Of a stretch of DNA of 37,303 nucleotides, positions 31,903-35,569 are shown piece by piece. The DNA is from an uncultured Verrucomicrobia subdivision 3 bacterium (lineage in GTDB: Bacteria > Verrucomicrobiota > Verrucomicrobiia > Limisphaerales > UBA11358). Numbering within the stretch: position 1 is the first letter of the stretch; the number at the start of each line of letters is the position of its first letter. The notes under the pieces were generated by a model. It was not told where the DNA came from. It saw nothing but the letters and a program-made list of their open reading frames with translations, and ran no database searches. The stretch is taken from NCBI GenBank assembly GCA_903870815.1, contig CAIQEI010000114.1, forward strand, positions 1 through 37,303, in the 5' to 3' direction. Position numbers and translations under genes: made by a program.

Positions 31903-33636
31903 TCAGAGGCGGAACACGGCAATGTGCGCGTCTTCGTAGCAAGGTTCTCCGAGCGTCTTTTGATATTGATTCCGGAGCCGCGTCAGATCCGGCAAGGGCA
32001 GCGCAACCTCGGGCAACTGCGCCTCAAAGCGTTTATGCAGGATCACATACTCCACCCCGCGCCCGCGCATCGCCGCCAGATTGTCCATGGATAGGAAATT
32101 GCGAAAGTGCAGGTCGGCCGGATCCTGGACGAGGCTCAGGACCTGATCAATGTAAGTGTTACCATAGATGTTACCGGGAGCGAGACCACGCGACAGCGTC
32201 ATATCCGTCGTGTAACCCACCAGCACCGGTCGCCGATGGAAGTGCTGGTAGTAATACAGCGGATTGAAATGGTCGCCAATCAACATTGGATACTCGACGA
32301 TGGGGCGCGCACTTGGGCGGCTCGCCAGCAACAGGTAGAACGGGGAAATTTCATCTGACCGCAGGGTCGTGACGAGCGTAAAATCTGCCGGAGTCAAGTC
32401 GCTGGCAAAGGACTGCCGCCAGTCAATGCTGCCGTAGTGATGTTGATAAGCGCCGTGGCTGGTGAAATTATTCGGTGCCACATAGCATTGCGGCAGCGGC
32501 CCGGTAAGGGCCAGGGACGCCACCCACGCCAGCGCAATGGAGGTTTGCAGACCCGGCTGCAGGCTGGAATATTTGGCCACGGCCTCCAACCCGGCCTGGA
32601 TGCCACACGCCACAAATAAAAGGCTGACCGGCACCAGCGGGATGCAGTAGCGGGCCAGGACAATCGCGCTCTGGGCGGAATCCGGCCGCGACAAAATCAG
32701 CGCGAGAGCATGCAGTGGATAGAGACTCACCAGCATCGCGCCAAACCACGGATTGCGCCGGCATTGCTCGAGGGCGCCCGCGATAAAGGCCGTCCAAAAC
32801 AACACCGTCAGCACCGGCTGGCCGGTGCCGCTGATCAACTGCGCCACCCGTGGCAGGGACTGAACACTTAATTTCCCCGCCAGCGCGATGTTGAAAAAGG
32901 TGCTGTGCAATGAATCGATCAAGGCCGGCAGTACCAGGATGGACCCGCCCCCAGCGATCACCACTGTAACCATGATCCATTGCCGCAGGGATGGACCGGC
33001 CACGATGCCGCGCGTGACCTCAGACCGTCGCGCCGAGACCACATAAGCCAAAGTCATGAGCAAGGGCGCGGCCACGGTGACCAGGGCAAACAGGTGGAAA
33101 TAAATGGCCAGCACTCCCGTGACGGCAAACAGCAGCGCCGGGCGCCAGCCGCCCGACCGCAGCCAGCGCGCCGCGAACAACAACGAGGCGAAAGCCAGCA
33201 GCGCCACCGCGCTGTAGGGCCGGCAAATGCGGCTATAAAAAATCAGGAGCGGCGAAACGGCCAGCAAAAACCCCAGCCACCCAGCGCGGCGCGAGCCAAT
33301 GATTTCCCGCGCCAGCAGCGGGCCAACCGAAACGCATAAAACCCCACTTGCAAGCGAGGGCAGGCGCAGCAGCAGCTCCGACCACCCGGTGGTTGCGCCC
33401 AATAACCAGCCGTAAAAATTAAGCGGTATGCACGTCGCTCCGGGAATGGAAAAATGCGTCAGCAGCCACGCGGGAGACTTGCCGATGGCGTAATAGAAAC
33501 CGTGCCATTCATCATCCAGGAAAATCTGATCCCCGAGCAAATGCCACCGCAACCAGAAGCCCGTCAGGGAGGCCGTCACGAGCGCGAGCACGAAGGCCAG
33601 GGTCCGGTTCTGCTGCAACGGCGTCTTCATTCGCAA
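31903..33636 (-). CDS. Polytopic glycosyltransferase, GT39/ArnT-like
   Basis: A 577-aa membrane protein of the GT-C superfamily. The first periplasmic loop has the acidic motif FLDDEWHGFYY (38-48). Further on, REIIGSRRAGWLGFLLAVSPLLIFYSRICRPYSAVALLAF contains the SRxxRPY-type motif of PMT/ArnT-like bacterial enzymes. About ten to eleven membrane segments precede a periplasmic C-terminal domain (about 395-577). It likely moves a sugar from a polyprenyl phosphate to an envelope acceptor. It is convergent with the previous operon, with an 18-bp gap, and divergent from leuA. ATG at 33630 is an alternative start. Confidence 0.85.
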   Translation of the reverse strand: MRMKTPLQQNRTLAFVLALVTASLTGFWLRWHLLGDQIFLDDEWHGFYYAIGKSPAWLLTHFSIPGATCIPLNFYGWLLGATTGWSELLLRLPSLASGVLCVSVGPLLAREIIGSRRAGWLGFLLAVSPLLIFYSRICRPYSAVALLAFASLLFAARWLRSGGWRPALLFAVTGVLAIYFHLFALVTVAAPLLMTLAYVVSARRSEVTRGIVAGPSLRQWIMVTVVIAGGGSILVLPALIDSLHSTFFNIALAGKLSVQSLPRVAQLISGTGQPVLTVLFWTAFIAGALEQCRRNPWFGAMLVSLYPLHALALILSRPDSAQSAIVLARYCIPLVPVSLLFVACGIQAGLEAVAKYSSLQPGLQTSIALAWVASLALTGPLPQCYVAPNNFTSHGAYQHHYGSIDWRQSFASDLTPADFTLVTTLRSDEISPFYLLLASRPSARPIVEYPMLIGDHFNPLYYYQHFHRRPVLVGYTTDMTLSRGLAPGNIYGNTYIDQVLSLVQDPADLHFRNFLSMDNLAAMRGRGVEYVILHKRFEAQLPEVALPLPDLTRLRNQYQKTLGEPCYEDAHIAVFRL

Positions 33637-33708: not shown

Positions 33709-33737
33709 TTGACCGCGACTAACCGGCGGACTAGTTT
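33709..33737 (+). promoter_or_regulatory. Possible promoter of the leuA leader
   Basis: TTGACC (33709-33714), 17 bases, TAGTTT (33732-33737). The -35 is good and the -10 is weaker. The expected transcript start (about 33744) coincides with the GTG of the leader peptide, which would make the leader leaderless. It sits in the 107-bp space divergent from the GT39-like gene. Confidence 0.4.
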
Positions 33738-33743
33738 AGGAAT

Positions 33744-33809
33744 GTGAATCGCCATTTGAACCTACTGCTAACGAACGCGCTGCTGACCAGCGCGGCGGTC
33801 GGGTGTTGA
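33744..33809 (+). CDS. Leucine-rich leader peptide of the leuA attenuator
   Basis: A 21-codon frame starting at GTG 33744 and ending with TGA at 33807-33809, preceded in frame by a stop at 33732. The peptide begins MNRHLNLLLTNALLTSA and has six Leu, with the runs CTA-CTG-CTA (33762-33770) and CTG-CTG (33780-33785). CTA is rare in the surrounding genes. The frame ends 22 bp before an intrinsic terminator and about 100 bp before leuA. These are the hallmarks of a leuL-type leader whose translation senses charged tRNA-Leu. Its only product role would be regulatory. Confidence 0.75.
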   Translation: MNRHLNLLLTNALLTSAAVGC

Positions 33810-33840
33810 GCATTCACGGAAATTTATCAACCCCACCGCC
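33794..33840 (+). promoter_or_regulatory. Antiterminator stem of the leuA attenuator
   Basis: GGCGGT (33794-33799) plus GGG (33801-33803), with C33800 bulged, can pair with CCC-ACCGCC (33832-33840), the same bases that form the 5' arm of the terminator. A ribosome stalled at the Leu codons (33762-33785) would leave 33794-33803 free, so the antiterminator forms and leuA is transcribed. A ribosome that reaches the stop codon at 33807 covers it and the terminator forms. The mechanism is inferred by analogy with enterobacterial leu and his operons. Confidence 0.65.
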
Positions 33841-33860
33841 AGTCCGGCGGTGGGTTTTTT
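33832..33860 (+). terminator. Intrinsic terminator in the leuA leader
   Basis: CCCACCGCC (33832-33840), loop AGTCC, GGCGGTGGG (33846-33854), then six T residues (33855-33860) and, after a G, four more. The perfect 9-bp GC-rich stem directly followed by a T run is the clearest intrinsic terminator in the window, yet it lies upstream of leuA rather than after a gene. It is best explained as an attenuator. Confidence 0.9.
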
Positions 33861-33907: not shown

Positions 33908-35569
33908 ATGCATAAAGATCCGTCCAAAAAATATCGTCCGTTCCCGCCGGTCCGTTTGCCCGACCGGCAGTGGCCGAACCGCGTCCTCACCGCCGCGCCG
34001 CGCTGGTGCAGCGTGGATTTGCGCGACGGCAACCAGGCGCTCGCCGTGCCGATGAACGTGTCGCAGAAACTGGAATTGTTTCAGACACTGGTGAAAATCG
34101 GGTTCAAGGAAATCGAAGTCGGCTTTCCCTCGGCGTCGAACACGGAGTTCACGTTCAACCGTCGGCTGATCGAGGAGAAACGCGCGCCGGACGATGTGTG
34201 GCTGCAGGTGCTCGTGCAGGCGCGCGAGGATTTGATCGAGCGCACCATCGAGTCCCTCATCGGTGCGAAGAAGGTCATCATCCACATGTACAACTCGACG
34301 TCGCCAGCCCAGCGCCGCGTCGTTTTCGGCAAGTCAAAGGACGAAATCAAGGCCATCGCCGTCAACGGCGCCAAGATGATCAAGGACCGCTTGCACCGGC
34401 TCAAAGGGACGGAAATCATGCTCCAGTATTCCCCGGAAAGTTTCAGCATGACGGAAGTGGAATATGCCCGGGAAATTTCCGAGGCGGTCATGGACGTGTG
34501 GCAGCCGACGCCGCAGCACAAGATGATCTTGAATCTGCCGGACACCGTCGAGGTGGCGATGCCGAATGTTTACGCCGACCAAATCGAATGGATTTGCAAA
34601 AACATCAAAAACCGCGAGGCGCTGATCATCAGCCTGCACACGCACAATGACCGCTGCACGGGCGTGGCGGCGACGGAGCTGGGATTGCTCGCGGGCGCGG
34701 ACCGCGTGGAAGGCACCTTGTTCGGGAACGGCGAGCGCACGGGCAATTTGGACATCGTGACGGTGGCGTTGAACCTGTACATGCACGGCATCGATCCGAA
34801 ACTGGATTTCTCGGATCTCGGCTCGATCATTGACGTTTATGAGCGAAGCACCGGCATGACCGTGCCGGCGCGCCAGCCTTACGCGGGCGAACTGGTTTTC
34901 ACCGCCTTCAGCGGTTCGCATCAGGATGCGATCAAGAAAGGCCTGGCCGAGCGCGAAAAAATTCCCGGCTCACCCTGGGATGTGCCGTATCTCACGATCG
35001 ACCCGGCGGACATCGGCCGCGAATACCGCGAAGTTATCCGCGTCAATTCCCAGTCCGGCAAAGGCGGGGTGGCTTACCTGCTTGAAAGCGAATTCGGAAT
35101 TGAGCTGCCCAAGGACATGCAGCGCGAGTTTGGACCGATTGCCAATATCGAAGTGGACGCCCTTGCCCGCGAGGTTTCCGGCGCGGAGCTCAAGGCCATG
35201 TTCTGGAAGGAATACGTCGAGCGCAACGCACCCTGGTCGCTCCAGCAGTTCGAGACGGAAAGCAAAAATGGCGTTGTGAAATGCCGCGCCAAACTGTGGC
35301 GCGAAGGAAAGGCGGTTGAATTCAAAGGCGAAGGCAACGGGCCGCTCGCCGCGCTCGTACACGGATTCTCGCAAGTCGGCGTTTCGCGTTTTGAGATCAG
35401 CAACTACAGTGAACACGCACTGAGTTCCGGGGAGGCGGCGGCGGCGATCGCCTATATCCAGATCCGGACCGCGGACGGCACGACCCGCTGGGGCGCGGGC
35501 GTGGACACGAACATCGAGCTTGCCTCGGTCAAGGCCGTGTTGAGCGCGCTGAACCGGTGGGGCCTTTGA
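33908..35569 (+). CDS. leuA: 2-isopropylmalate synthase
   Basis: A 553-aa enzyme condensing acetyl-CoA with 2-ketoisovalerate, the first committed step of leucine synthesis. The length and the start (KYRPFPPVRLPDRQWPNRVLTAAPRWCSVDLRDGNQAL) match the long LeuA type. The catalytic barrel has the metal ligand region VDLRDGNQAL, GFKEIEVGFPSAS and LIISLHTHNDRCTGVAATELG (HxH metal site). GTLFGNGERTGNLDIVTVALN is also typical. The C-terminal ~130 residues form the LeuA dimer/allosteric domain, where leucine binds. Expression is probably controlled by the attenuator at 33744-33860. Confidence 0.96.
   Translation: MHKDPSKKYRPFPPVRLPDRQWPNRVLTAAPRWCSVDLRDGNQALAVPMNVSQKLELFQTLVKIGFKEIEVGFPSASNTEFTFNRRLIEEKRAPDDVWLQVLVQAREDLIERTIESLIGAKKVIIHMYNSTSPAQRRVVFGKSKDEIKAIAVNGAKMIKDRLHRLKGTEIMLQYSPESFSMTEVEYAREISEAVMDVWQPTPQHKMILNLPDTVEVAMPNVYADQIEWICKNIKNREALIISLHTHNDRCTGVAATELGLLAGADRVEGTLFGNGERTGNLDIVTVALNLYMHGIDPKLDFSDLGSIIDVYERSTGMTVPARQPYAGELVFTAFSGSHQDAIKKGLAEREKIPGSPWDVPYLTIDPADIGREYREVIRVNSQSGKGGVAYLLESEFGIELPKDMQREFGPIANIEVDALAREVSGAELKAMFWKEYVERNAPWSLQQFETESKNGVVKCRAKLWREGKAVEFKGEGNGPLAALVHGFSQVGVSRFEISNYSEHALSSGEAAAAIAYIQIRTADGTTRWGAGVDTNIELASVKAVLSALNRWGL

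Follow-up and report, generated by a model that had tools for sequence, protein, structure and literature searches.

Upstream of leuA in an uncultured Verrucomicrobia subdivision 3 bacterium lies a short, leucine-rich open reading frame followed by a hairpin, and the question is whether these parts make up a switch that controls the gene. The window considered here is a 37,303-nucleotide stretch of DNA (contig CAIQEI010000114.1), in which an earlier note had read positions 33744-33860 as a complete leuA attenuator. Amino-acid attenuation mediated by the ribosome is a classical, textbook mechanism class, and on every point that sequence can address the locus has the features of a classical attenuator. 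Judging from these features, we consider it very likely (probability of about 0.92) that the element at 33744-33860 controls leuA as a ribosome-mediated transcription attenuator.

Parts of the element and their conservation

The leader peptide MNRHLNLLLTNALLTSAAVGC is encoded on the forward strand at 33744-33809, beginning with GTG and ending with TGA at 33807-33809. Six of its 21 codons specify leucine (TTG, CTA-CTG-CTA and CTG-CTG), which is the richness in codons for the end product of the pathway that is expected of an attenuator leader. The Leu-codon run ACCTACTGC at 33760-33768 forms segment 1. Segment 2 (33794-33803) is made of the last leader codons and consists of GGCGGT at 33794-33799, a bulged C, and GGG at 33801-33803; it is complementary to CCCACCGCC at 33832-33840, the 5′ arm of the terminator (segment 3). 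The 3′ arm GGCGGTGGG at 33846-33854 (segment 4) runs directly into TTTTTT, the two together occupying 33846-33860. The resulting hairpin, CCCACCGCC-AGTCC-GGCGGTGGG, has a perfect 9-bp stem and starts 22 nt past the leader TGA. An intrinsic terminator (33832-33854 plus six T residues) is thus found between the leader and the first structural gene, as the earlier note had stated along with the 21-codon leader and its six leucines. That gene, leuA (33908-35569, forward strand), encodes a 2-isopropylmalate synthase of the long (yeast/actinobacterial) type, with product scores of 816.7 bits for NF002991 and 723.9 bits for TIGR00970, both of which exceed the cut-offs.

We collected leuA loci from relatives of the source genome, namely metagenome-assembled genomes named Limisphaerales, Pedosphaera or Verrucomicrobia subdivision 3, and aligned the 66 distinct leaders that they contain. 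All 66 are in frame, with 20-24 codons of which 4-8 are Leu (a typical peptide is MNRNLNLLLTNALLTSAAVGF), and they start with GTG in 57 cases and ATG in nine. Leader, segment 2 and terminator stay together in these 66 loci. A covariance model, R1, was built from 47 of the 66 leaders; the window copy is one of these seeds, and its score of 108.8 bits (E ~1e-28) is to be read with that in mind. Matches to R1 at E 0.01 or better occur in 178 of 196 Limisphaerales genomes, some weak second hits being other elements, and the gene that follows is leuA in every homologue behind the model. Changes in the leaders fall on codon positions 1, 2 and 3 in the numbers 1134, 1041 and 1434, a weak bias that argues only faintly for coding. 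The start of the peptide, NRNLNL (codons 2-6), is conserved beyond its Leu codons, and Asn makes up 15% of residues.

Taken by itself, the hairpin is ordinary, since a scan of the region gives about as many terminator-like sites as shuffled sequence does (17 versus 13.4). It could then simply be an intrinsic terminator that ends a transcript coming from upstream and lies beside an ORF that is Leu-rich by chance. However, the gene before it (31903-33636) is divergent, being read from the other strand, and therefore no forward-strand gene needs a terminator at 33832-33854. That 66 loci and 178 of 196 genomes have retained leader, segment 2 and terminator as a unit also stands against this explanation, which is already refuted by the conserved leader codons and pairing and which we regard as extremely improbable.

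A different proposal would be that the leader, though read by a ribosome, acts on leuA at the level of translation or by way of Rho, as has been suggested for actinobacterial leuA leaders, which have no typical terminator (PMC8079986; PMC1262725). In nearly all homologues studied here, however, there is an intrinsic terminator of at least 9 bp with a T run, and the leuA start lies some 25-250 nt further downstream. This makes control through translation or Rho very unlikely.

Alternative pairings

If the element is a transcription attenuator, its segments should form mutually exclusive stems. Pairing was counted as the percentage of cells formed in the 66-row alignment, and amounts to 99.3% for the terminator stem (3:4), 96.3% for the antiterminator (2:3) and 89.7% for the 1:2 stem. 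When one partner is slid by 1-3 columns, formed cells fall to 30-69% for these stems. The antiterminator excludes the terminator because both use segment 3, and segment 2 is likewise common to the 1:2 and 2:3 stems. In the 1:2 stem the Leu codons at 33760-33768 pair with 33795-33804, which places the control codons inside the stem as in known attenuators. The anatomy at 33744-33860 is therefore the full classical set of 1:2, 2:3 and 3:4 stems.

When the leader is not translated, its minimum-energy fold combines the 1:2 stem with the terminator, and within 1:2 a further hairpin, CGCGCTG/CAGCGCG (33776-33794), is nested between segments 1 and 2. One element of the earlier reading must hence be given up, namely that the design lacks a separate pause hairpin. 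What it proposed about the switch, a translation-coupled leucine attenuation in which GGCGGT-c-GGG in the last leader codons pairs with the 5′ arm of the terminator, is supported by the 2:3 pairing and the retained Leu codons, as far as sequence can speak to it.

For the antiterminator, the covariation score is 0.132 compared with 0.114 in shuffled alignments (0 of 500 shuffles as high). Neither the column covariation of the terminator stem nor the column-count covariation of 1:2 rose above shuffles in the 66-row alignment, because there is so little variation among these sequences. Native pairs of segments have a mean duplex energy about 1 kcal/mol better than pairs assembled from different species, for each of the three stems, and none of 5000 partner permutations is as good as the own partners for 1:2, 2:3 or 3:4, although this figure is uncorrected for relatedness. 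For 1:2 and 3:4, support comes from such whole-partner permutation and from the class-wide comparison alone. An apparent compensation in 1:2 is seen in two loci (L066 and L090), where the last codon is TTG rather than TTC or TTT and segment 1 has CAAYC rather than GAAYC or AAACC. Tested leader by leader against synonymous recodings, the 2:3 pairing ranks within the top 5% in only 20 of 64 leaders.

Several genomes outside Limisphaerales match R1 more weakly in a class-wide draw, before leuA in other Verrucomicrobiia families, and among 20 stretches examined, eleven from such families carry a Leu-rich leader immediately upstream of a leuA. There the switch strand differs in sequence and the pairing is retained (CGGCAGACGGTGGGTTG with TAACCCACTGTCGCCG, and CGGTCGGTGGGTTG with CAACCCATCGGCCG). 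An alignment of relatives had been proposed as the check on the attenuator, and its outcome is favorable, with Leu codons kept in 66 of 66 leaders and a 2:3 pairing that persists through sequence turnover in other families.

An outer stem, GTGAAT at 33744-33749 with ATTCAC at 33812-33817, just past the stop codon, spans 33744-33817 and adds to the minimum-energy fold. It reaches -5 kcal/mol or lower in 41 of 66 relatives compared with 15% of shuffles. As this stem pairs the region of the start codon, it could mask that codon in a leaderless RNA that is not being translated.

Predicted leaderless start and proposed mechanism

A predicted -35 element, TTGACC (33709-33714), is followed on the forward strand after 17 nt by a predicted -10 element, TAGTTT (33732-33737), which ends 6 nt before the GTG. 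This spacing between promoter and start is fixed among relatives. TAnnnT is present at a gap of exactly 6 nt in 34 of 66 homologues and at 7 nt in four, compared with zero to two at any other gap, and in 54 of 66 (gap-6 register) TTGAC precedes the -10 hexamer at a distance of 16-18 nt. Hexamers at a gap of 6 or 7 nt score 8.1 of 12 on average, versus 4.3 in shuffled sequence. In Streptomyces lividans the distance from -10 hexamer to transcription start averages 6.3 nt (PMC8079986). Since the -10 element here ends at this usual distance from the GTG, the start codon should also be the 5′ end of the transcript, and the leader mRNA is probably leaderless. That term applies to transcripts beginning no more than about 3 nt from the start codon, a position predicted here from promoter spacing alone. 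An SD-like 4-mer precedes the leader in only 6 of 66 homologues, and translation of the leader consequently depends on this leaderless assignment. Leaderless leaders are known before leuS, ilvB and leuA in Streptomyces (PMC8079986) and in trpL of Sinorhizobium meliloti (PMC7298713). Such a start would neatly tie translation to transcription right from the 5′ end of the RNA.

From this arrangement we infer the site of transcription start, the stalling of ribosomes, termination in vivo and a response to leucine, as follows. Transcription would start at the leader GTG, with a ribosome loading on the bare 5′ end. When charged Leu-tRNA is ample, the ribosome would reach the TGA at 33807 and cover segment 2, leaving segments 3 and 4 to pair, and RNA polymerase would stop at the T run. 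A shortage of charged Leu-tRNA would instead stall the ribosome on CTA-CTG-CTA, where it covers segment 1 and leaves segment 2 available to segment 3; the terminator would be blocked and leuA transcribed. If the leader is not translated at all, 1:2 would form and termination would follow.

Further indication of what is being sensed comes from a second, weaker R1 match in the source genome (C68:10375-10493, reverse strand, 28.7 bits; locus L145), which is an attenuator before acetolactate synthase (ilvB). Its leader MKNVIQAVSLVVVVVGDAVGAC has a TTG start with an in-frame ATG just before it, and the terminator is ACCCACGGC...GGCCGTGGGTTTTTT. This leader carries a run of Val codons instead of the Leu run, and the identity of the codons thus follows the product of the gene. 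An ilvB attenuator with Val runs is present in ten or more relatives, the family having been checked on L164. The Val-rich ilvB leaders of L145 and of relatives (L160, L162, L164-L167, L169-L173 and L193) apparently also start close to a promoter.

That Leu codons go with leuA and Val codons with ilvB bears on another explanation, in which a ligand-binding riboswitch or protein-binding leader would act without sensing through tRNA and would overlap a small ORF by chance. It could be taken in its favor that segment 2 and the linker past the stop codon are strongly conserved in sequence across the leaders. Yet neither the window nor the relatives have any Rfam match at gathering score except two tRNAs, and with the codon switch this makes a riboswitch or protein-bound leader very unlikely compared with a leader read by ribosomes.

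Known leaders, a second leuA type and other genes

The best weak match to a known family is to the enterobacterial Leu_leader (RF00512), which scores 15.6 bits where the gathering cut-off is 50 (E 0.64). This is chance level and places the element outside that family. The enterobacterial attenuator is similar in its Leu-rich leader peptide, its 1:2, 2:3 and 3:4 stems and its intrinsic terminator before leuA, but the present element shows no significant sequence or covariance match to it, has only 21 codons and a predicted leaderless GTG start, and precedes a different leuA type. A Leu-rich leader before a leuA is also the shared feature with the actinobacterial LEU element (Seliverstov 2005, PMC1262725; Streptomyces LeuL1, PMC8079986), whose leader is transcribed leaderless in S. 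lividans. That element has a proposed pseudoknot and lacks a typical terminator, whereas the Verrucomicrobiota element has a classical terminator and antiterminator. Given that the LEU element is defined by a conserved pseudoknot, a base stem of the Leu run with the leuA Shine-Dalgarno sequence and no terminator, the conserved terminator argues against membership. The leuS (LeuL2) and ilvB leaders of Streptomyces, with a leaderless leader mRNA and then a hairpin and U run, are alike in layout and belong to other genes and another phylum (PMC8079986). Similarly, the attenuator transcript of S. meliloti trpL starts at the ATG of the leader, but it reads Trp instead of Leu, and its peptide and RNA reportedly also act in trans (PMC7298713).

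According to a survey of 2010, leader-peptide systems had until then been known only from Proteobacteria and Actinobacteria, and the survey itself added Firmicutes (PMC2965389). We found no report of attenuation in Verrucomicrobia in the searchable literature, subscription papers lying outside the search. The attenuator is thus apparently new for Verrucomicrobiota, a tentative statement that fits the earlier note, whose author knew of no described case in such a bacterium. It would extend textbook amino-acid attenuation to this phylum, where in one order it is nearly universal for leuA. For annotators, R1 provides a covariance model of an element absent from Rfam.

In many Limisphaerales genomes the R1 match lies before a leuA of the other family. 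The downstream gene is TIGR00973 leuA_bact in G047 and G039, and by coordinates a leuA of the other type likewise follows in G040, G042, G046, G050, G051, G054 and G055. One genome (G157) carries both types, with one attenuator copy before each (L203 and L204). The two leuA types are about 30% identical, and hence one cassette serves two non-orthologous leuA genes. The simplest reading of these sequences is that the gene was replaced under a retained cassette. We give roughly even odds to the broader proposal that a leaderless promoter-attenuator cassette for leucine is ancestral to Verrucomicrobiia and was kept while the gene was exchanged, so that it now stands before two leuA types and has a Val-reading counterpart at ilvB. 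If so, the regulatory element has been more stable in evolution than its gene. One cassette in front of unrelated leuA genes would offer a way to study how a regulatory RNA persists when its gene is replaced.

Among about 24 relatives, no leader and terminator with a matching amino-acid run was found before trpE, hisG or homoserine dehydrogenase, and among the genes tested attenuation in this group seems restricted to the branched-chain ones. Another R1 match in the source genome (C9:4689-4774) is a terminator before argC that has no leader peptide, and weak matches on the other strand over the element are palindrome echoes of its hairpins.

Eight leuA loci of Verrucomicrobiaceae (L089, L093, L094, L095, L097, L098, L101 and L103) are without a terminator-type attenuator. 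They carry a different Leu-rich leader, with CTTACNCNAGGGTAGGCGGC conserved across the stop codon, about 110-160 nt before leuA, and this leader may be of a kind with the actinobacterial LEU element, which it resembles. In another family of the class, a leader MLVNVVVVLVTSTASARA and a terminator precede an acetolactate synthase-like gene (L190; G401:C12:176672-176794).
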